DNA from: Ectocarpus siliculosus
Taxonomy: Eukaryota; Sar; Phaeophyceae; Ectocarpales; Ectocarpaceae
Assembly (NCBI GenBank): GCA_000310025.1
Contig: FN649742.1
Span: 1,721,947-1,768,788 of the forward strand
Direction of reading: 5' to 3'
DNA: 46,842 nt
This document shows, piece after piece, positions 1-27,200 of the stretch. The notes below the pieces were generated by a model, which saw nothing but the letters and a program-made list of their open reading frames with translations, was not told the origin of the DNA and searched no databases. Made by a program: the position numbers and the translations under genes. Each line of letters opens with the position of its first letter. Positions within the stretch are counted from its first letter, which is position 1.

Positions 1-883
1 GCATGAACGGAACGAACTACTGCTGTGTAGTACAAAAGGATACGAACTCACAATCAATCGCTGCTGCTGCTGTACGCCCATGGGAGGGTGTCGAGGCTCT
101 GCGTGTTGCACAGCCGACGATTATTTATTGTACACCAACCGTAGCCAGGGCGGACTTTCTCGGTCAAAGAGATTTCGTTTGCCTCCCTACAAAAAAATTG
201 CTTCTCTTGGTTTCAGAGTAATTATTTATTTATTTTTTCCTGTGTGATGGAGATAAGATACCATGTGTCCTGCCGCCGCGCCGACCTCCCGCGTGTCGAC
301 CTACTCGGTCCGTCGGCATGCATGAAGGAGGTTAGCAATCTGTTTGAAAGCGCTGGCGACGTCCTGCAGTCTCACGACTGCCATCCTGGACCGTTCAGGC
401 CTGAATTATGTATCCCGCTTCCGGCTATACGTTCGAGTTTAATTGCGAGAGCTGCCCCCCTTCACCGTCCACGGGCTGTCATAAGTGTGACTACCGTTTC
501 GTCACCATTCCTTCAGTATGTCTTTATAGGCAATCGACAGTTCTGTTGTAGCATGCGCGGTCGAGTGATCGTGCCTGCCTCGCGTGCTGCTGCTGCGCAC
601 AACCGTGTACCGTGTAACGGTTCCCACCGAATGAATGACGTCAGTTTTGCGGCGAGATTTTTCACGTCAGCCGAACTGGCTTTCTGTTCCGAAACATGGG
701 AATTCTGGTCAGCTCTGTAGATGCCAACTTCCCAAAAGCGCTCGCGATCATGGCGGCCGATGCGCTCATGGACGCTGGCTTTCCCCTTGCGGCCTCTAAA
801 AGCCCCAGAGCCCTGGGGCGTGCGCATGGAGAATGTTCTTCGCGGAATCTGTTATTCCCGTTTCTGCCTTTGTGGCTCACGGG
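1..883. other. No gene recognised
   Basis: Several short open frames occur on both strands, but none has a recognisable motif, splice structure or biased composition. A short CTG run lies near 60-75. I see nothing else to annotate. Confidence 0.5.
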
Positions 884-1104
884 TACCGTATATGACACAA
901 GATAACACACCCCCTTGGCCGATTTTCAAAGCTCAATTTCTCAACAGCAGGAAGAGTCACAGCGCCGAAAACGGCGGCGTTGGAACCGTCTCGTCGAGAG
1001 CTGTTCGAAAACGTATTGTTTCGTTTATGCATCCTCTTCGTCGTGGAGTAATCGAGCTTTGAAAATCGGTCCAGGGGGTGTGTTATCTTGTGTCATATAC
1101 GGTA
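884..1104. mobile_element. MITE with ~50-bp TIRs and TA target duplication (copy 1)
   Basis: The first and last ~50 bases are inverted copies of each other with only a couple of differences: the left end reads TACCGTATATGACACAAGAT and the right end is its complement. Both ends carry a TA dinucleotide, which fits the TA target duplication of Tc1/mariner-type (Stowaway-like) MITEs. The interior has no coding capacity. A diverged second copy with the same ends lies at 29582-29815. The element sits about 120 bases upstream of the start codon proposed for the Rep-domain gene, so it could contribute promoter sequence; that is inference. Confidence 0.85.
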
Positions 1105-1225
1105 GTCGGGACGGGCAGCCACTCAATTTTGGGAACAGCAGCGCGAGCTACGTTTGCCCCTGCCTTCCCCCTCCCCCCTCCTCCTCACAATCCTCTACTC
1201 CCCACCACTCGCTCTTCTTAAGCGA

Positions 1226-4200
1226 ATGTCTTCATCCTACGAAGTATCTTTCAACGTTCTCAACAACACTGGGCTGCTGTACATCGAGAACGGCTTCACC
1301 TACCGGCCCGGAGCACATCAAGAAACAGCAGTACCGCGGTTTCTTCCTGCCGGCTGGGGTCCCCAAGGTCGCCTCTATTCCTGCCAAGGTGTGGATCATA
1401 AAACGCTCGGACGACTCCGCGATTCGGGCCGTCGCACAACAACTCAGGAAGGACCTGAAACGTCTGGGAGCGTCTGTCGCCAAGGTGAGGGCGGCAGTTT
1501 GTACGCATCACTTTTTCTTTGACTTTTTCGTTGCGCGAATTTCTATGTAGGTTCATCATTTTTTTCTCTCGATGCTCTCTTTCGTGATTTTTTCGATGTG
1601 TTTTTTCTCCTGTCATCCATCTCTGCCTTCTTGTGCGGTTCACCACAACCCTCCAGTAGCTTCGCGTTTTGTCCAACGCTAAATGTACACCCACCTTTCT
1701 GTGTTCATGCCACTTTCGCCACGCTCTTTCACCTCTTCGTTCTTTCTGTGTCTTGCGCAATATAAATATCCTAGTCCTTCGTGAGTTCTCTGGTATCCTA
1801 TCTCTGGTTGCATGTACTTACTCCAAGCATAGACTACATATATATGCACACCCGCGTGCTTAAACGTCTCACCAACTACCCTCGGGGTTTCGTTCGCTTT
1901 CCATACCTCTCTCCGTCCGATCGTGTCCCTCTTTTGCTACTGTGTTCCTCTTCCCCAAGATCGTCGTACTCAGTGTAACCAAGGCAGACCGTAAGGCCAT
2001 CAAAGACTCGGACGTCCTCAACAGAACCCCGAAGCGCAAGGCCACCTGCATCGAGGTGATCGACTCGGACAGCTCTTCTTCCGACGAATCTGTTGACTCC
2101 GCGGACCACGACTACGATCAAGCCGACGAGAACAAGTACGACGACGACCTTGTCGAACGCCTGCCAGACACCGACGCGGACTCCGCGTTCCAACCGTCGT
2201 CCGGCTCCACTTCGGAAGCCTCGACTGGTTCCTCCAGCGAAGGTAACTATTCTCTGCATACCGTACTGGACCTTTTAGTTTCCCGCATGGTTGTTCGTTG
2301 TTTGCCGTTTGTCATATTAGTATGTTGGACCCTTTCTTTAACTACACAGCAGGACCGCAGTACGCTTTTCCCCCCGTAGTGAGCTTCTTGTCTTTTCGTT
2401 TCGTAGCGTTGTCTTGTCGTTTCATACCACATCATCTGATTGCTTTGTTTAAATGTTGTGTTCCTTTTGCGCCCATGCATTTTGCCTGTTGCTCGTTTGT
2501 TTGTTCTCTATTACTGTTTGGTCTGCAAGTATAATATTGTCTTTGTTCAATTCGTCCCTGGTTCCCATTTGTCCTGCCTCTACTGCTGTACTGCTGTACT
2601 GCTTACACTACTGTTTGCGTTCCCTCTCTTTTCATCTTGTGTATGTTGTCGTTGCTCACTCGATTCGTCCGTCTACTTCTTCTTCTTGGTCTCTGTGTCT
2701 TTTGGTCTCTTTGTGTCTTTTGATATATTTCTGTGTTTGACAAGGAGCGAATCTCTTTCTTGGCCACGGTCGGTTTTATATTGACGCAACAACAAACCAT
2801 TCCATCTTTTTCCTATTTTATCTTCTTCCCTTTTCCATTCAGAAGACGAATCCAGCTCCGAGTCGGGCAGCGACGACAGCAGCGACGACAGCAGTTCGGA
2901 CGAGGACTCCAACGCCGACAACTCCAACACCGGAGGCAGCGGGGCTGAATGCGGAGTGCCGGTCGTCAGCTCCCAGGAAAGCTGCAGCAACGATGCGTCC
3001 GCTCTTCCCGCTCTTCCCGCAAAGAAGCGCAGGTAATGCTTGCCGTGTTCGAAACTTCTTTCCCTTTGCTTTTTTTTAGTTTCGGCGGTCGTCAACATAG
3101 TACGTGCGCGAGTTGGTTCGTTGTTTTTGCCTGTTCCTTCTTACCGTCTGTCGTTGGGTGCTGTAGATAGGTTTTTCCCTCCCCCTTCTGGTTTTTGTTC
3201 CCCTGTGTCTCCCTTTCTTGCGCTTTTGCGCCGCCTGTACATTTAACTTAGTCTTCTTGTTGTTCACCTTGTGCGAAATACAATTAACTCATTTATGCAA
3301 CAATACTTCGAAGTATCTCCTCTTCTTTCTTCTCAACTGATACTCATACCCTTCGCCTCTTCTTTCGTTTTTTTCGTGTAGGCTGCGCTGAAGAGGCCGC
3401 AGCCTCTTCCGCAGGTGCGGCGGCTGCGGCCCCAGTCCCGACGACGTCAGACGTGGCCGTGCGCAGTTCCGACGTCTTCACCGCGTCGACTTCGTCCCTG
3501 GACGAGCCTTCGTCTACCGTTCATGACCCGGCTACGAGTGCTTCTACGCCCGCTCGGGGGGCGATCGCGCGGGGGGCGGGTCGTGGTCGACCCCTCTCTT
3601 CTCCGCAAGCACCTGGAATAGATCCTGGTGACGCCGTCGTCACCAGGTCCAGGTCCAGGAGCAACTCAGGTGCGTTCACTGCTTCAGGCGAGGTTATTGC
3701 CTGTTATCGAGTTCGGTTTTGTGTCTGTCTGTATGGCTCAATGTATCATCTTCCTCTTTTTTGCTTCCTCCAGACAACTGCAGCACTTCGTCGTCCTTGA
3801 CGCACTTCCTTTGGTTGGTTGCTCTTCTTCCTGCTCATTGTTGTTGTCTTTGGTCTGCTTTTACCATCATTGGTGTCTTGCGTGCAGTCCCCAATGCGTT
3901 ATGTGTTCAAGTGTTGAGTACTTGGGTGGTCGTTATAGTTTTTCTTGTTGGGATAGGTATTTTGTCATCGTCCCGCCTTACTCTCGCTGCCTCAACAAAT
4001 ATTGCTATTGCACAGCGTGTGTATTTGTATGCCATATCATCTTATTGTTTCCTCGCTACTTTATGTTCTGTCCCCGCCACTGCCTTTCCCACGACAGGAC
4101 ATGACACCCGGCCTCGCCGTCCTCCCACGGCGGACGACTCCAGCGATGCTATCGCCGCTCCCTTTTCCCCTTCTTCTACCCGTCCTCCCGCCACTACCTC

Positions 4201-6534
4201 GCCTCGTCGTCCTGTCGGGCGCCCGCGGGGTCGGTCTGTTGGAGCCCAGGCCGCCGCCAGCCGTGCCGGAGCCGCAGCCGGAGACGTCCATCGCCGTCGC
4301 GCTGGACGCCCCCGCAAGGATGCCGCTTCCGCCCCTCCCTCTCCTGCTTCGGAGATCTCCTCGCGTCGCGGTCCGGGTCGTCCCCGCAAGGACACAGGTC
4401 GTCCCCGCAAGGACACAGGTCGTCCCCGCAAGGACACCGGTCGTCCCGCTGCCCCGCCCGACGGCGGGGGCGGGGCAGCGGGTGGAGCAGCTTCTCAGCC
4501 TTCGACGCCCTCTTCTCCGCGACCTTCGTCGGCATCTCCTCCTTCAACGACAGCACCGTCTACGTCTGCACCAGCGGCCCCCGTCACTCCTCCTGCGATT
4601 GCGACATCGGCTCGCCGTCCTGGTCGCCCTCGCAAGAGTCCTCCTGCTTCCAGGGAGCCCTCTTGGATCTGTCCGACCACAGGGGACATCGCCGATGACA
4701 TCATCGACAGCGGCGTCGGCGCTCCACACGACTTCTCCGTGACCATCGGCAACCGCAGTGGCGCCAACATCAAGGAGAGCCTCTTCAACGAAGGCTGCGC
4801 ATGGATGACGAAGCGTGCAGTTCGCGGCATCACCAGCATGGAGCGCGGAGACATCAACGGAAACCTACACCTCCAGGGCATCTGGACCCTGGCCCTGAAG
4901 AAGGACTTCGGTGACAGCAAGAAGGAGGAGGCGGCCTTGAGGAGGAAGCTTCGGGTGGACTGCGGGTGGACTGCGGCGGACAAGGTGAAGATCACCATCA
5001 AGCGCCTCATCAAGCAACAGACATTCAGCGGTGAGTTCTTCTCTTTGAGACTTCTGTAGAGCTTTAATGTCCGTCTGTATTTTTAGGCATCTCATTTTCA
5101 AGTGGAGACACGTCTTCTGTAGCTCCTTTATGTTCGTTTGATGTGTTGTCTGTCGTACGTGGCCCTGCTTTCCGACGGTGTGTTTCGGTGCCCTGTATCT
5201 GTGAATAACGTCTACCCATCCGTCTCTGTTGCCTACTGTTCCTTGCGTTCATCGCCCAACGTTTGTTTTTGGTTCTTTGCCCTTTACTGCTTACACAGAT
5301 AGGTTTCGTCTTGCCTGTTGCTCGTCTTTCTCTCTTTTCCTCTTGCATACCCTCTCCATTTTTTTGTTTATGTTCTCCACATGCGTACCCCCTCGACATT
5401 TTTTTATTCTATCATACCCCATGTACGTTTCGTCCTTTCCTTCCTGGACTTTTTTCTGGTTGCGTTTTGTTGCTTCGACGGTTACATTCTTTCGTCTTGC
5501 CAGTGGCTAATCCTTCTCTTTTCTTCCCTTGCGTTTCCCCTCCCACAATTCGTATGTCTTTATCCGTTGAAGGGATGGTAGGGTACTGCTCGAAGGACGA
5601 AGGACGATCACACTTCAAGACGGTCACCAAGGGCGTGTCGCGGACCGAGGTCAATATCGCCCTCGCCGAGTACCGCACCCTCCAGCGATTCGTCGTCTCC
5701 GAGCTTCGAACCGACATCGGGAAGAAGAATTTCTGGGGTGTCCTTCGGCGCTTCAAGCAGGAGCACTTGCGCGGGATCTCCGTCTCACCGGTGCAGCTGA
5801 TCTCGTGGTACATCAACGACGGGGAGGGGATGCCCAGCCACACGTGGATCTGCCCGACCAGCGCATTCGCTATGGAGGCCGCGCGCGCCGATGCCTACTT
5901 CACGGCGCTCATGTCCCCATCGCTTTTTACGCGCAAGGACGCGTACTTGCTCTTCTTCTCCGGCGGGCAGGGCGGGCGCGTGAGCTCGTCCTTCGCGAAG
6001 TGGGACTACCAGGACCGCGAGTTCTCCGAGATGACGGTCGACCAGGCGAAGGTGTGCTCCCACGACCGCCAGGAGCTGGAGGGAGCCATGGACATCGCCC
6101 GCGAGCGCATCATGCGCGACATTGCGGAGTCTCATCGCGCCCCGGCAGGGGTCGTCAACTTCCCCGTCGACGCAGACTCCGACGCCGGCTCCGACTCCGA
6201 CGTCGCCGCCGCCCCGCCGCCGCCTCCCGCTCGTCGTCAGTGGGACCGCATCGGCCGTACTGCGGCGGACACGTCGTCGGCATCGGAGGAACTGCCGCTC
6301 ATTATCTGCCCCAAGTGTGTGGAGCCAGGGTGCACCAAGGCCGGCAACATCGCGATGGTCGCGTGCAACCTGTGCGACGGGGACCTCCACCGATCGTGCG
6401 GAGTGCGCGGGGGTGAGGAGGACGCGTCGTGGAGTTTCAAGGCATCCGGTGCTCCCCCTGCTCCACGACTTCCCATGGGAAGAGGAAGTCTCGCGCTAGC
6501 TTGTACTGATTTCTGTTTGGGGACCTTTCCGTAG
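1226..6534 (+). CDS. Spliced AT-hook / HUH Rep-type endonuclease / PHD-finger protein
   Basis: Proposed exons are 1226-1484, 1984-2242, 2843-3032, 3382-3669, 4098-5030 and 5573-6534, all with GT/AG borders; phases agree at four of the five junctions. In order the product (about 960 aa) has an unknown N-terminus; a Ser/Asp/Glu-rich acidic part (exons 2-3); an Ala/Ser-rich part; six GRPRK/GRPRG AT-hooks (about 4200-4640); and then the three motifs of a CRESS-type Rep nicking domain. These are motif I FSVTIGN (4733-4753), motif II HLQG (4868-4879) and motif III YCSK (5584-5595, catalytic Tyr). The motif III exon is joined in phase to the motif II exon. The C-terminus has a C4HC3-like PHD finger (about 6307-6520: CPKC, CNLC, H, C, late C..C). 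No Walker A of a Rep helicase was seen. Two lesions are present: a +1 frame change near 1311 inside exon 1, and a phase mismatch between exons 3 and 4. It could be a Rep-bearing transposon gene or a domesticated gene. Confidence 0.7.
4379..4441 (+). repeat. 21-bp tandem repeat coding AT-hooks
   Basis: Three consecutive near-identical 21-base units each encode GRPRKDT, so unit expansion multiplies AT-hook cores in frame. It lies inside exon 5 of the Rep-domain gene. Confidence 0.85.
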
Positions 6535-7042
6535 ATCTGTGTCATGTCCAACTTCTCCTTGCGTAGTGCCGCTGTTTTATTGTCTTGTTTTGTTTGCTGT
6601 CAACGTCTCCCACTCGCCTGTAGCGTATCACTTCCTGGTACCGTCTGGCGGTGATGACCCGCGCCGTCCCGTTCCGTTTCTCGTCGTGATTTTTCGTTTC
6701 GTCATCGTTTTCTTGTTAGTAGCTTTCGGGTACGCACATTGTACGTTTCGTACGCGTACCACTGCACTTTTCCCGTAGATTCAATCACTGCGCAGTAGAT
6801 TTACATCTCCGCGGTCTTCCCGTCATTTAGCCAGTGTTATGTCTTGGTGCTCTTTGCCGCGGTAGCCGTGTTCCGTCTGCAGTTTTACGGTGGAATTTAT
6901 TTGCGGTTTCTGTGGATGACAGGTGTAGAAGTGCTGTAACCATTGTTGTTGCACATACAAAAGTAGGACCAAGATACGATCCGAACGGAGGATCTTACTG
7001 ATGGTTGATCAGCAAGAGACCCGACTGTGGATGCGTCCCTCT
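6535..7042. other. Spacer between Rep gene and retrotransposon
   Basis: No gene is seen. The 5' LTR of the downstream chromovirus should end here if the proposed primer-binding site is right, but I could not find a matching copy downstream of the element. Confidence 0.4.
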
Positions 7043-7060
7043 TGGCGCCACCTGTGGAGC
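7043..7060 (+). other. Possible tRNA primer-binding site
   Basis: The sequence TGGCGCCACCTGTGGAGC starts with TGG, as expected for a site complementary to a tRNA 3' CCA end, and TGGCGCC is common in Ty3/gypsy primer sites. No LTR end (CA) directly precedes it, so support is weak. Confidence 0.3.
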
Positions 7061-7298
7061 TTGGGAATCCGAGACCCTCGGGCTTGGTTTCCCTTGCCCC
7101 TTGGGGGGCGCACTTTTTTTTGTTTTTTTTTTTTGAGACCCTTTCCTCTTTAAATTTCGAGGAAGAGAACTGCCAGCCCTTAGTAGTGGGAAAAGATTAC
7201 TGCGACCTGGCCCCCCCCCCCAACGAGGGAAGCCTGTGTCCTCATTGGCGTCGACGAATTAAAAGATACTCTGCTGGTACTGGAGGTAGAGGTGAGAG

Positions 7299-8165
7299 AT
7301 GCCGAATAAATCAGCCGTGCAACGCGCTCGCGATAAGGCGGACTCGGCGGACGAAAAGAGGCTCAAGGAGCAGCAACGCCGCCTTGAGCTGGAAGCTGAG
7401 CTAGAGCAGCTCAAGCAACGCCTCGCCGCCAAACACCCGACAACCTCGCTAGCACGTGGGGCACCCTCGGAACGCGTGCCGGCTTCACGCCCCTCGGGTG
7501 ATAGCAGCCTTCTTGAGGAAAAGTCGGATGACCCTGAGGGTGCCGACCGCGCGAGTGCCACCAGCGGCGGTGAAGATGGCGGTGATTCCGGTGAGCGCGA
7601 CACGTGTGTTGACGGCGAGAGTGGAGACGAGTATGAGGATGTTCCTCCTGCCGCCGGCCGGGAGGGCGTTGGGCAGATGAGGAGGAACCCGAGGATGAGG
7701 AGCCCGAGGTTCTATTATATCATCTCCGGCTGGTGCACCCATTGTGGAGATGCTGAAACAGCACCACCGTGATGGGACCGAACCTCCCGAATGGCTCATG
7801 TCCATTGTACTGCCCGCCAACTCGCGAAAGGTGAATACTGTAGGTGGTAGCATGCCTGCTGTCCGACACGAACCCAACGTTGGTAGCGAGGGTAGTGCCC
7901 GCCCGAACCTCCGGCGTGACAACAGCATACCATCTAATTTTGCTTCACAGCAGTCACCTATCTCGTCTCGGCAATTACTAAACGATTTTTCTCCGCAATC
8001 CGTAGAGACCCCACGAGAAATCGACAACACCAGCAGGACTAGCGACCCTCTAGTGATGTCGAATGCCTCACCTACACACTCTACTGTGCGCGCTGATGAA
8101 CACCCGTCAGCGCACACTACGGGTACGTCTGCTCGTTTCGTCTCAAAACCCGCAGACCTACTCAA
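7299..8165 (+). pseudogene. gag-like region of the chromovirus, broken
   Basis: It begins MPNKSAVQ and has a highly charged Glu/Lys/Arg/Leu stretch (about residues 15-48) typical of a coiled coil, followed by an acidic low-complexity part. The frame changes between about 7670 and 7740 and then stays open to 8400, running into reverse transcriptase. No CCHC knuckle or protease active-site motif (DTG/DSG) was seen. The segment between gag-like and RT sequence is shorter than in complete elements, suggesting an internal deletion. The gag assignment rests mainly on position. Confidence 0.5.
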
Positions 8166-8179
8166 AGATCTTGTTTTCT

Positions 8180-11100
8180 CAGGGGCTCGATTCTGTGTGG
8201 ATTATCGCGGTACCATTAATAAGAGTTTAATCCGAAAGTCGTGGCCTATGCCCGATATTAATGCCCACATTGATACAGTAGGTGGAGCAAAGTTTATCAC
8301 TGTGTGTGACGTGCAGAGCGCGTACCACCAGATACCCGTTGCAGCAGCGGAGCAAGAGAAGACCGCCTTTGTAACTCAAAAAAGGAAAATGGGTTTTTAA
8401 ACGTCTCCCTTTTGGAATTGCGAACGCCCAGTTTTTATTTGCTCGCATGATGTCATTAGCATTTGCACATTTTGGACCCCGAAGGGGCCTCCTTGTTTAC
8501 ATGGACGACATCATTTGCTGTAGTTCGACTTGGGAAAGTCATCTAACATTGTTAGAAAATACATTTCAAGCCCTTCAAGCCGCAGGGCTCACATTGAAAC
8601 CTTCCAAGGTACAATTCGGGCCAAGGGAAGTAAAATATTTAGGTCACATTTTGTCTGCGAAAGGAATTCGAATCGGAGACGACCGCATTAAAGCTATTGT
8701 TGACCTGCCCGCTCCTAAAACGATCAAAGAACTCCGTCCAGTTTTAGGCATGATAAATTTTGTGAGGAAATTTCTCCCAGATTTGTCCACGGTGGTAGCG
8801 CCGTTGGTAGACCTCACTAAAAAAGAGCACGTAAAATCGATTGCAAAACGTTGGCGAAACGAACATGATGAGGCGTTTGCGACAGTCAAACGACTGCTCA
8901 CGGAAGCACCTATTTTACACTTTCCCGATTGTACAAAAGACTTCGTCGTGCACGTGGATGCCAGCGAAGCAGGTGCTGGAGCTTTCCTTGCGCAGCAAAC
9001 AGGAGATGACCTCAACATTATTGCGTATTTCAGCCAACGATTCAACAATGCTCAGCGCCACTATTCCCCAACCATGAAAGAATGTTACGCCGTCGTACTA
9101 GCAATACAGCACTGGCGGCCCTATTTATGGGGCAGACATTTTGAAGTTGTGACGGACCATGCTGCGCTGAGATACTTGTACACCATGCAGGACACTTCAA
9201 ATATGCTGACTAGGTGGGCTATCGCTCTGCAGTCGTTTGACTTTACCGTGCGACACAAGCCGGGGAGGTTACACGTTGTTCCGGATACCTTATCTCGGTT
9301 GTTTGCTATTGAGTACCAGCAACACTTAGAAGCCCCGAAACTAACACCGATTTGTAGGAATGTCCCCAAGGATCCTGCTTTGCATGTAGCTGTACCGAAC
9401 AGACCTTATCAAGTGGCCGCAGACCGCCTGGAAAATTTGAAACCAGTGCAAAGTGATCGCGAATTGTTTACCATTAATTCGGTTTACATCAGCGCGACCA
9501 ACGTTTTTGAAACGATGAACCGAGACATCTTGCGAAAGAAACAAGCAGCCGAGTATGGGAAATACATCGACTATCTTGTGGGGGAAAACGCACGAGTCCC
9601 GGACAACGAAACAGCAACAACCATGTCCTATTATTTTGTACGAGACGGATTGCTGTTCAAATCGTATTTACCAGGTTACCTCAGGAAACGGAGTACTTTC
9701 ACTGATCAATTAGTATTGCCACAAGCTCTCACGGGCTTAGTTTTGCACGCTTACCATGATCACGTTTTTGTCCGGAGGTCACCTAGCATCTAGACCGACT
9801 TATGACAAGATCCGCCAAAAATATTGGTGGCCGAACATGAGTCGGGACGTTCGCACTTGGTGTCAGGAGTGCCAAGCATGCCAACGTCGGAAAACCGCGC
9901 ACAATCGCACCAAACTGCCAACTGGACACGTACCAGTACAACGACCGTTTGAGCGAGTTTCAGTGGACTTAGTTGAATACAAGAGCGAATCGATGTCAGC
10001 CGCCGGCGTACGATGCAAATATGTCCTATCCATGATGGACTATCTAACCCGATTCACCGTGTTGACTCCGATTCCGAATAAATCAGCTGTCACAGTTGCT
10101 CAGGCTATCATTGACCGCATCATAGGCATTTTTGGACCGCCTGAGTTGTTGCATTCTGATCAAGGGCCTGAATTTGAGAATAGTGTGATCCACCAGTTAC
10201 AGAGTATTCTGAACTACAAGAAAACCCGCACAACACCATATCGTCCGCAAGGGAATTCTGTGTCGGAACGACTACATTCAACGATGCACGCAATGCTTGC
10301 CATGCATAGTTCAATGAAGCGTGATAACTGAGCGTCGCTACTACCTTTCATACAACTGGCGCATAACACTTCTTTTAGTGCTACCATGCATGAAACTCCA
10401 TTTTTCCTCATGTTTGGCAGACAACCACGACTACCTGTCGATATCATTCTCGGTATTCCTCATGTAGGAACAACAGCCAATACCGAAGAACTTGCGAAAG
10501 ACACGCGGGAAAATTTACAAATTGCTTTCGAATTAGCGCGCCGAAACTTAACGGAACGTACAAAAAAGCAAGCGGCGAGTAATTCAAAACTGAGACCGAT
10601 TCCCGTGTTTAAACCTGGCGATCAAGTACTGGTATACAGACCATATCAGGATTCCGATGGCCCCAACCCGAAATTGCTGTTACCTTGGCGGGGACCATAC
10701 GTCGTCTGCTCGCAACTATCACCCGTAGTATACCGAGTGAGACGGCCAAAAGAAACTCGAGAAGTTTCGGTTCACCTAGCCCATATTAAACGATATTTCG
10801 AGGAAAACAACGCCTGCGCCCGACTTTGATAAACTCGCTGAGTTCTTTTTAGGGCGACAGATTCCGTTACCCGCTATCGACCCTGATGAGGCCCAACCAA
10901 GAATTGAGTCTTATGTTGTAGACAAAGTGGTAAGCCACAAAAGTGGTCGGGGTCCGAGGACTCCTTTTAATTACCGATACCGTTTGCGTCTTCGAGGGTA
11001 TGGCCCGGAGTCAGACCTCGAATACCGCGCAGATGAGGTACCACAATGTCAAGAAATGATAGCTGCATACCGAATCCGTTGTGGTTTGGATATTATCGCG

Positions 11101-22263: not shown

Positions 22264-24096
22264 TCATGGAGAAGCAGCTCCGGCAGCAGACGGGGGTTTG
22301 CCATCTGCTGCTCCTGAAGCAGACGGGGGTTGGTCATCAGCTGCTCCTGAAGCAGACGGGGGTTTGCCATCAGCTGCTCCTGAAGCCGACGGGGGTTTGC
22401 CATCAGCTGCTCCTGAAGCCGACGGGGGTTTGCCATCAGCTGCTCCTGAAGCCGACGGGGGTTTGCCATCAGCTTCTCCTGAAGCAGTCGGGGGGCTCCC
22501 ACCAGCTGGACCGGCAGCAGTCGAGGGGCTCTGTTCGTCCAACCAGCACATATCGCACCAGGCGGTCACCGCGTCGTCGGCTGTCTCGTTCAAGGCGTCT
22601 AAGCCTGACCAAAACGTCAGGAAATCGTCATTGAGAGCTTCTATGGAGCCGTGGTCTTCGAACACTAGGGCAGCCTCACGACCCTTCCCGCCGCTAGAGT
22701 CGTCGATCCCATTGCTGTCGCCATCATTAGCGAGAGCGGGGGCTGCAACGGGATGAAGGAGCCGCCCGTTCACAACGTAGTCCAAGTGACCATCGTGGTG
22801 TACGACCTGCGCAGAAGGAGACAAGGGCAGACACTTCAAACCGTTTCCCTCAAGTCTTCTCATGGGCTAGGGTAACTTGTCAACTTTGTTTTGTACGAAC
22901 AAACACGACACAAGTGAATAACTATGAGTAGTGAAAAAGCTCGCTCGAAGAAGGCAACAGACGGAATGAAAAAAGACGGTGCGATAGTGGTGGGGCTGCT
23001 GGTGTTGCTACTGCTGCCGCTGCACACACCTCATGACCGCAATGCGGCCCGTGGTTGTTGCCCTCACAACGACCTCGTGTTTGGTCAAGTCGCGCGCCGT
23101 CCCAATGAACGAGAGCGTTCGTCGGCTTGCCGGGACCATTCGTTTCCTTCTTCGAAGAATCATCGCATCCACAGCTAGAGGCACCCCCTCCGCCACCCTC
23201 CTTGACAATGCTCACCCAGTCTCCGCCAGTTCTCTGTCCAAAGACGACAAGGGTGGAGGGGGGGTCGTGCCATGTGATGTGAACAGAGCCAAAAGCGCGC
23301 ACGGGACAAGCAAAAGGGCATCGTGGCGGGGCGCGCACTACCAACCGGGACATGGCTGCGAACATCTCTCACCCGGTACAAACACACTACAGCAGTTTCA
23401 CGGCGCCCTTTTCACAGTGCGCGCGATTACTCAACAGGCCAAACGCCACACAAACCACGCTCCGGCTCAGTGGGTTCTATCGTGTTTTCTGCAGCTGGGC
23501 GTTTGGCGTCCTCATGAAACAAGATGGTTCACGATGCTCCCAAGGCAACCTTGTCTTCCAGGTCTACGAGAACACGAATATTCGCGAATACACGCCGCAG
23601 CGTGTAAAGTATCTTGGAACGGGATAGCGTCGCACCTCTTTCCCAGCGTAACACTCTAGTTGCCCGCCTTCCCCCAAGAAATCGACATGGTTCTCGTGAC
23701 GCACTGCGCGGTGCCCGCAGGCCGCACCGTGAACGTGTACCTTGGCCCCGACCAGGCCATCCTTTCTCGCCTGCCCATGCGGCCGCTCAGCGCTATGCTG
23801 CTTGATTGAACCGTCGGCAGCAGACCCTCCAGGCCCGTTGATGACGCTGGCGCTGCCGTGGACATCTAATCCTTCGGTTGAGGCGGCGATGGGGCTGCAG
23901 TGCTTGTGAGCATCACACCGCACGCGTTTGCGGCGGTAGCGCCGGTGCGGTACTGCTACGGGCTTTGCGAGTAGAGAACCCAGCGGCACCGAAGCTGATT
24001 GCGGCAGCGGCGGCAGCGGAGGTAACGAAGAGTTGCCAACAAGGCCTTGGATTTCGGTGTTCGTCAGCTTCTGCGGCGGCTGCGGCGGCGGCGGCG

Positions 24097-24170
<74 letters not shown>

Positions 24171-24230
24171 GGTGGCGGTGGCGGCAACTGCTGCTGCGGG
24201 TGCGGTTGCTCCTGGTGCTGTTTCTGCGGT

Positions 24231-24265
<35 letters not shown>

Positions 24266-27200
24266 CGGTTGCTGCTGCTGGGGCTTCTTCTGCTGCTGCT
24301 GGGACTGCTGCTGCGGCTGGGGTTGCGGTTGCTGCGGGTGGGGCTGCTTTTGCTGCTGGTGGGACTGCTCCTGTTGTTGTTGCTGCTGCTGCTGTTGCAG
24401 CTGCTGCGGCTGCTGCTGCGGCTGCTGCTGCTGCTGCTGCTGCGGCTGCTCCTGCTGCGGCTGCGGCTGCTGCTGCTGCGGCTGCTCCTGCTGCGGCTGC
24501 GGCTGCTGCTGCGGCTGCGGCTGCGGCTGCTCCTGCTGTTGCTGCTGCTGTTGTTGTTGCTGTGGCTGCTGCTGCTGCTGCTGCTGCCACTTTTGGTACT
24601 CTTGCCATTGCGGTTGCTTTTGAAGCTGTTGCTGGACAGCAAAAGCCAACCCGTTGAACAGCGGGTTGTCGAAGGCTTCGGCGGCCGTGCATTGCAGCGG
24701 CCGGCTTGACTCCACGGCGATAGGATTCAGCTGCTTTTCCATTTGGACAAGCGGATTAGAGGCCTTGATCTCCACGGTTGCCCCCGTTGGGGCTACCACT
24801 ATGGCCCGCCGTCGCTTTGTTCCACCGCTGCTCATCGTGCGGTTAGTCACGCCGCCAGAGGCCGAGGCATCTGCATCACTCCTCGTCGATGGTGGATTCT
24901 TTCTCTTTTTCGACGACGATGATGGCTGCTGGTGAATGTTCATGACGTGTTTCTTGAGATCGTACGGGCGAGTGAAGCGTTTCCCGCATAGTTTGCACTC
25001 GAAAGATTTGGCGTCGGCGCTGTGAGTGCGCTCATGGGACCGCAGATCGCTTATCCGCGCGAACTTCCTTCCGCAAAGCGGATGTACACACGCGTACGGT
25101 TTTTCACCTGCAAGGCCGATTTGACAGACGCGCATTTTGTCAATTCTCCATCTCGAAATTAAAGCATGAGGGAGACAGGGCGGTCATCATCAGAGTGCAA
25201 CCGCCCGTCGTGTACACTGTTCAACCTCCCTACCTCAGCATCTCCTTCTGCATCACACACATGGCGGTCCACCCGAACTTCAGCTGGCTACAACCTAGGC
25301 GTTGAGGCCTTCAAGGTGAGGTCGGCAGGTCAATCCCAGTGACAGTGAAATGTATTTCCCCCTTGAATTTTGCACCCAGTACTGAAGAAGGCGATCATTC
25401 ACGATAACACCAACACAAAGCGATCTTGCGCGCGCTGCAGTGTGGAAATCTTATTTTGTGCCTAGATGCAGCTCTCCAGTTAACGAAAGGCAGGACGACG
25501 TTCCTTTGTGAGGTGCATGACGAGGTGGAAGATACGAACGGCCGTTACTAAGCTATCTTTTGTCGATGACTCAAAAAAAGATCGACTACAGCGTAAGAAG
25601 TGGGTCATCAAAACAAGTATCCTAAAAGGGACCCGGTTAAATATTTCGCTGTCGTTAATGAAAAAAAGGACAACTGACGAAAGAACCACGTCTAAAACTG
25701 GCAAGCTTGATTCATATAAGAAAGGACAACGCTTTCGGACAGCCCCGTCCTGTCCGTCGTTTAGTAAGTTTTGGTTGTGGGGATGTCCGAAACCTTTGTT
25801 CAGCCCGATGACCCTTCTACATCCCACAGATGGTATCGCAGCTTGCATCGGGAAGCCGTGCAGGTCCTTCACCAGTTCTTTTTTTGAGGTGGTACATATT
25901 TCGTCAGTCCAAGGAGCCGACAAACATTATGTGCACGCAAAGCTTGTGCACGCGCACGTAAACCAAGAATAAATATAAACCGCCGAAACGCGGCGGAATA
26001 AGCAGCCTCCGTGAGGCAGGTGACATATGTCATTTTATTCATCTAAAAAGGTTCCCCTTCGGGACGTGGGTGTCAGGTTTTCCGGGGGTGACGCAAGACC
26101 ACATGCGCATTGCTCAAAGGGCTGTATGTCATGGTCTATATCTGTTCGGTAGTGCTCGCCCTCGTATAAAACATCGCATGTGTCATGGGACTGAGGAGGT
26201 GGAAATAGTTGGCCGACGAGGGTTACTCTTGTGATAATGTTATACAACTGTTGATGGGCAGCTGCAATCTCGACATGGGTAGCATAGGCAGTTGTAACAG
26301 ACATGAGATAGAGGTATTCCGGGACACTTTGGTAGGGTTTTTCAGGTTGACCAGCTATTTGAATGTTCTCTGAATTGATTCCAGCAGAGATGGAGTCGTA
26401 AAAAGTGTTTTGTCCAGAGCCTGGTAAAGGGCTATGGAGATTGTCGTTGATGAGGTCGATGAGTTGCGTTGTGACCAGTTGGTGCATGTTGGGCTGTTGA
26501 AAACTCGATGGGCAATGCATCTTACATAGTAGGCATGCTCCATCACCGATTCCATTGACAATTGGCCAAGACCCTTGGTTGTTGTTGTTCCCATTGTTGG
26601 CGTTATTGCCGTTGTTGTTGCCCGCACCACCGCAGTCGCCATCATTAGGCGATGTGTTGTTGCCATTGTTGCATCGTTCACCTTGGCCATGGTGACGAGG
26701 TAGTTGGATGTCAAAAGTAGGGGGAGGTTGACCGTGGCTGCAACAATCAGAGAAGACGACGTTGTGCACGTGGGGGATGTCGTTGACGAGATGATCCATG
26801 TTCAAAGAGGCATAGGATATTGTCCCTGCAGGTTGTACGGCAAACGGCAACAACGTACAACTGACCGTCGCAGAAGACCGATCCCCTGAGGTCGAGGCCG
26901 ACTTTTCTTAAAGTTGTCCTTGAGACTTGTTTATGGTCATAGCGTAACACAATCTGATAGAGAATGGTAACGGTGAAAGGAAATACCGTGCGCTCCCACT
27001 TTGACGTCCAAGCAGATGCGTAGTATTTTAACGATGGGAGATTCATCGGATAGAACTTCAACGTCGGTAATGCGTCATGAAACCCCTCGAACAACTCCCC
27101 GTTTGCCATTGACGAGACCGCAGTCAAAATTATTGTTCCTGATGAAGACGATCAATGCTCCAACTTTGAGGTTGAGTTTGTGCGGTGGCGTGCCGGGGAC

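Follow-up and report, generated by a model that had tools for sequence, protein, structure and literature searches.

A probable decayed Replitron in the brown alga Ectocarpus siliculosus, with AT-hooks and a Cys/His finger on its HUH transposase

The DNA analysed here, a stretch of 46,842 nucleotides from Ectocarpus siliculosus (the window), carries at positions 173 to 6910 what is very probably a decayed brown-algal Replitron, whose transposase joins AT-hooks to an HUH nuclease domain with one tyrosine, followed by a C-terminal region that weakly matches the Replitron type and by a Cys/His finger. The transposase gene appears to have about six exons. An earlier note, made from the sequence alone, had described a spliced gene at 4098..6534 joining AT-hooks, an HUH Rep nicking domain and a PHD finger; exons 5 and 6 of that span stand, but it was too narrow, as more exons lie upstream from about 1226 and the element starts at 173. 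The window's own 189-Mb genome was searched for copies, which are named by contig (the window itself lies on C17), and relatives found by protein search carry P numbers. The features are:

173..6910, + strand: Replitron element as preserved; 5' break at 172/173 against C16, C420, C1 and C474, second break at 6910/6911, 3' part absent from the window
173..183, + strand: 5' terminus, TTTCGTTTGCC; TTTCG opens 7 of the 8 compared 5' ends, and the target cut A/TTT is taken from empty sites
886..1100 (approximate), no strand given: short insertion like a miniature inverted-repeat transposable element (MITE) in the Replitron leader, with inverted arms at 877-945 and 1043-1111; C420 and the partial C1 copy lack it
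1226..1483, + strand: exon 1, N-terminal domain, frame-broken near 1305; ends placed by eye, C420 matching residues 8-75 of P0009 here
1960..2242, + strand: putative exon 2, acidic Ser-rich linker; existence and ends judged by eye from GT/AG
2843..3032, + strand: exon 3, acidic Ser-rich linker; ends by eye from GT/AG, with a weak tblastn match of P0001 at 2917-3210 (E = 6e-4)
3382..3669, + strand: exon 4; ends by eye, with a tblastn match of P0001 residues 92-169 at 3435-3671
4098..5030, + strand: exon 5, six AT-hook cores followed by HUH motifs I (4733) and II (4868); motif search and Pfam
5573..6509, + strand: exon 6, motif III with the catalytic Tyr (5584), C-terminal region and Cys/His finger; the conserved frame ends at about 6509
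6316..6497, + strand: Cys/His finger; first six ligands in frame at 6316-6399, break near 6426
6911..9790, + strand: start of a retroelement and its RT/RNase H region (RVT_1, RT_RNaseH), interrupting the Replitron 3' part and lying outside the element; the 6911 start is repeated in the genome

A script search placed motif I (FSVTIGN) at 4733, motif II (HLQG) at 4868 and motif III (GYCSKD, with a single Tyr) at the Tyr codon 5584. Across the six frames of the window the pair of motifs I and II occurs once; on its own, the motif II pattern turns up six times, and there are two instances of the motif III pattern. The frame is kept across the 5030/5573 splice, which is bounded by GT at 5031 and AG at 5571-5572. 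The spliced protein (4100-5030 joined to 5573-6534) matched the Pfam family Replitron_HUH (PF21859) over positions 1-128 of 128 (E = 4.3e-51, 173 bits against a cutoff of 28.5), while the exon 5 open reading frame (ORF) alone matched positions 1-94 (E = 2e-30) and that of exon 6 positions 92-128 (E = 1.9e-13). Since adjoining parts of the family fall in two exon ORFs, the splice has independent support, and the order of the three motifs, with motif III brought into phase by splicing as the earlier note had read it, was confirmed by the script and by the family match running across the junction. The predicted structure has a beta-alpha-beta-beta-alpha-beta core across motifs I and II, with a mean predicted local distance difference test score of 77-94 per ten-residue block and one block at 57. 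The match and the AT-hook cores thus argue for the putative HUH nicking enzyme with AT-hooks that had been proposed.

The absence of a Rep helicase also held: no helicase family was found at E 0.01 in 9 chosen ORFs, a subset of those in the window, nor at E 10 in the spliced protein. Eight of these ORFs, from the Replitron region, matched no family besides Replitron_HUH at E 0.01, and the ninth is the neighbouring reverse transcriptase. The order of motifs I, II and III and the words HLQG and GYCSKD resemble those of the Reps of circular Rep-encoding single-stranded (CRESS) DNA viruses, so that an integrated endogenous CRESS-type virus or plasmid Rep may be considered. CRESS-DNA virus Reps match a viral Rep family and carry a superfamily 3 helicase. 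Here, the family matched is Replitron_HUH; the spliced protein drew no CRESS Rep family at E up to 10 (HMMER filters drop most matches above about 0.1, so weak ones may be missed), neither a helicase nor a capsid family was found in the scanned ORFs, and the gene is spliced and lies within a mobile element with defined ends. A viral or plasmid origin is therefore scarcely credible. The profile search proposed for the exon 5-6 region thus yielded the Replitron family and, of the other two kinds of Rep named, neither a CRESS nor a Helitron family.

The protein search returned 22 relatives, and all 9 that carry an organism name are from brown algae (Ectocarpus siliculosus, other Ectocarpus, Sphacelaria rigidula and Pylaiella littoralis). 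P0002, the E. siliculosus protein Esi_0000_0510, is 98% identical over 83% of the query region and bears a Replitron HUH name in UniRef; it differs from the window protein in that its gene model takes the AT-hook stretch in a different frame and in having Asp at the place of the motif III Tyr, like copy C1. Because of the match to the curated Replitron_HUH family, far above its cutoff, and the name of this relative, the suggestion of a new transposon type is unsupported.

Related protein pieces were found in the genome on C1, C420, C10, C2 and C18, with weak ones on C21 and C44. DNA comparison showed that the 5' end at window position 173 is common to C1 (twice), C420, C16 and C474, and the 3' end, TTTAATTTCTGTCCCCTTTCTCTTCCT plus a short tail, recurs with slight differences in C420, C1, C16, C83 and C24 but is missing from the window. 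The outer ends are common to C16, C83, C420 and C1. Two of these, C16 (1.37 kb) and C83 (2.0 kb), are deletion derivatives that keep both outer ends and have one internal deletion in common, with nearly the whole gene gone, yet each occupies an insertion site of its own. Identity across the common 5' part is 94-97% in all 10 pairs of five copies. A second family (C10 and C2), with 54-69% protein identity, has different 5' ends and a similar 3' end (C10 and C24, 84% over 51 bp). No inverted match of at least 8 nt was found between the first 120 and last 150 nt in any of 4 copies. Further copies with conserved ends, which had been proposed as a check, therefore exist, and the transposon option is upheld by a multi-copy element with common ends and deletion derivatives.

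The other option offered, a domesticated Rep, would make this a host gene derived from a Replitron transposase and retained for a chromatin role, and among the family-1 gene-bearing copies (window, C1 and C420) only the window copy indeed has open catalytic exons and the motif III Tyr; C1 has Asp at the Tyr place and frame changes, and C420 has frame changes and no motif III match. However, the window copy is itself frame-broken, exon 1 matching C420 in two frames and the finger changing frame at 6417-6429 (tblastn), so that 6534 is the stop of the shifted frame and not of the conserved one. In addition, its leader holds a MITE-like insert, a retroelement covers its 3' part, third-position changes between copies show no strong excess, as in decay, and element ends and gene-less copies exist. 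Because the gene occurs in several decaying copies, and deletion derivatives that keep its outer ends exist, domestication is unsupported and most unlikely. The element is thus of a known kind and not a new type of transposon or a domesticated gene. The window copy, frame-broken in exon 1 and in the finger, with a MITE-like insert and its 3' part lost, is a fossil.

Empty sites place the insertion at base resolution. C83 sits in a dispersed repeat, and when its flanks were joined, all 40 places scored, out of 330 candidates, covered the join. The 8 empty paralogues fetched all read CTCTCTA/TTTGTAG, where C83 has the element and a 15-nt pyrimidine-rich tail. For C16 there is one diverged paralogue, C457, with flanks 76% and 82% alike; with the 7-nt tail left out, its alignment spans the join from CCAACGA to the TTTGCGG side and scores 35, where 300 shuffles reached no more than 28, and it halts at CCAACGA when the tail is included. 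The element therefore enters at A/TTT without target loss, as C83 shows with 8 of 8 paralogues and C16 supports with its one diverged site. At the 5' ends opening with TTTCG the preceding base is A in 5 and T in 2. TTT also follows the 3' end after 8 nt in C420 and 1 nt in C1, as judged by eye without empty sites. The TTT on both sides in C83 and C16 fits a 3-bp duplication and plain insertion before TTT alike.

Insertion between A and T, an HUH enzyme, the lack of inverted ends and of a clear target duplication, and an assumed rolling-circle-like movement are all features of Helitrons as well, and the element could be viewed as a Helitron or Helitron-like element that lost its helicase. Helitrons have two catalytic Tyr and a fused helicase, whereas Replitrons have one catalytic Tyr and no fused helicase. 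Neither Helitron trait was found here: motif III holds a single Tyr, no helicase was detected, the family match is to Replitron_HUH with no Helitron family listed, and the 3' end differs from the CTRR end of Helitrons. A Helitron that lost its helicase is thus a highly improbable reading.

Like Replitrons, the element has a one-Tyr HUH domain, no helicase, no inverted terminal repeats, several copies and gene-less copies; it differs in being larger, in having (apparently) about six exons and in carrying AT-hooks and a Cys/His finger. The accessible part of PMC10741241 describes Replitrons as lacking terminal inverted repeats and having direct terminal repeats of 5-11 bp, lengths of 0.9-4 kb and target duplications of 2-8 bp. 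Several observations weigh against the assignment to Replitrons or the insertion rule: i) the gene-bearing copies as they stand are 5.6-6.7 kb, against the 0.9-4 kb given there; ii) short terminal direct repeats are ill-defined, with two 10-nt words in C16, one each in C83 and C1 and none in C420, and 5 of 265 random pairs also reach 10 nt; iii) Replitron_C (PF21860) was matched by 7 of the 8 relatives scanned, all below its 27-bit cutoff (E 1.7e-5 to 0.17), and in Pfam not by the window protein itself; iv) fold comparison returned widespread ferredoxin-like folds, and the 50 rows shown included no Rep; v) the tail after CTTCCT varies, with 1, 7, 8 and 15 nt in C1, C16, C420 and C83, and at the lone 3' end on C24 TTT is not close behind; vi) immediately upstream of the join, C457 and C16 differ in length by some 200 nt; vii) C83 is composite and contains a further 5' end, a MITE-like piece and, in inverted orientation, a 3' end of the second family; and viii) mobility is here read from copies, ends and empty sites, and not seen as events.

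The AT-hooks and the finger are the unusual part of this Replitron. Six GRP[RK] AT-hook cores precede the HUH motifs, as had been claimed (4217, 4304, 4376, 4397, 4418 and 4622), three of them inside a 21-bp tandem repeat, and the window's six frames hold 3 others. When 7 own-genome pieces were scanned, cores were found in all 5 copies with the HUH half (6 in the window, 7 in C1, 4 in C420, and 2 each in C10 and C2). Among the 7 relatives read that have the start of the HUH domain, 4 have a core (P0003, P0004, P0009 and P0011) and 3 have none (P0001, P0002 and P0006); in the P0001 gene model the exon 5 equivalent starts only at about 4676, skipping the AT-hook stretch, and that of P0002 reads the stretch in a different frame.

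The finger pattern C-x4-C-x10-C-x2-C-x4-H-x2-C is present in 7 of 7 own-genome pieces, and its final C-x2-C is in frame in 6 of them, the exception being the window, where the break near 6426 puts it out of frame. P0008 has two fingers, as has P0010, each of the latter short of one ligand. The match to Pfam PHD_2 is weak (E = 4.4), with the C4HC3 pattern present and a first spacing of 4, and none of 12 matches to PDB profiles is significant (E 0.04-4.5); 3 of them bear the name of a PHD finger protein, and the top match is a plant protein of PDI-like type. The PHD-like finger of the earlier note thus stands as a conserved Cys/His finger, which from its sequence may be called weakly PHD-like.

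In the HUH superfamily, the Tyr cuts single-stranded DNA and remains linked to the 5' phosphate, as stated in the accessible part of PMC13231165. Here, the Tyr would cut single-stranded DNA before TTT at the element 5' end. By analogy with Replitrons and other HUH transposases, the displaced strand would be copied, released at the pyrimidine-rich 3' end and joined at a target beginning with TTT, a copy-and-paste movement. That TTT follows the cut in all three places, the 5' end, the 3' junction and the target, fits one enzyme with one cut rule, and the base-exact empty sites suggest the position of its cut. The AT-hooks and finger may hold the enzyme to DNA or chromatin, and the domain make-up would allow the enzyme to be steered to chromatin. 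A wider proposal, that a brown-algal Replitron lineage has a transposase steered by AT-hooks and a histone-tail-reading finger, its copies landing at chosen chromatin under one TTT-based cut rule for donor ends and target, is doubtful as it stands. Chromatin-type modules on a Replitron enzyme are nevertheless testable.

The Replitron hosts described in the accessible part of PMC10741241 are green algae and seedless plants, beyond which the window adds a Replitron family in an Ectocarpus-type genome. In the accessible part of a 2025 paper on curated Ectocarpus transposons (PMC12477816), Table 1 has Helitrons and no Replitron class, and the main text has no word that starts with 'replit'. Our literature search found nothing on transposition by brown-algal HUH endonucleases, nor on a transposase with an HUH endonuclease and a PHD finger. 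The abstract of the founding Replitron paper, by Craig in PNAS in 2023, reportedly names three supergroups, and the paper may therefore already include members from brown algae.

Several minor observations were made around the copies. MITE-like pieces with long inverted ends, similar to window 886-1100, occur in the Replitron copies C2 and C83 and near C18. C18:72194-74297 (L016/L017) is a palindrome, 98% alike, of two head-to-head 3' halves of a related Replitron gene, either a real fold-back or an assembly fault. On C1, a partial inverted 5' copy (2847868-2849126; L009/L010) comes to within 26 bases of the larger copy's 3' end, and in C83 the inverted second-family 3' end lies between two family-1 5' ends. 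For the retroelement starting at 6911, 38 of the 42 matches listed for 6540-7020 (40 of 51 candidates scored) fall in its first 110 or so bases, and 6900-9000 has no second copy within the window. Farther along the window, a long ORF at 23567-25183 on the - strand encodes a C2H2 zinc finger (E = 2.1e-10).

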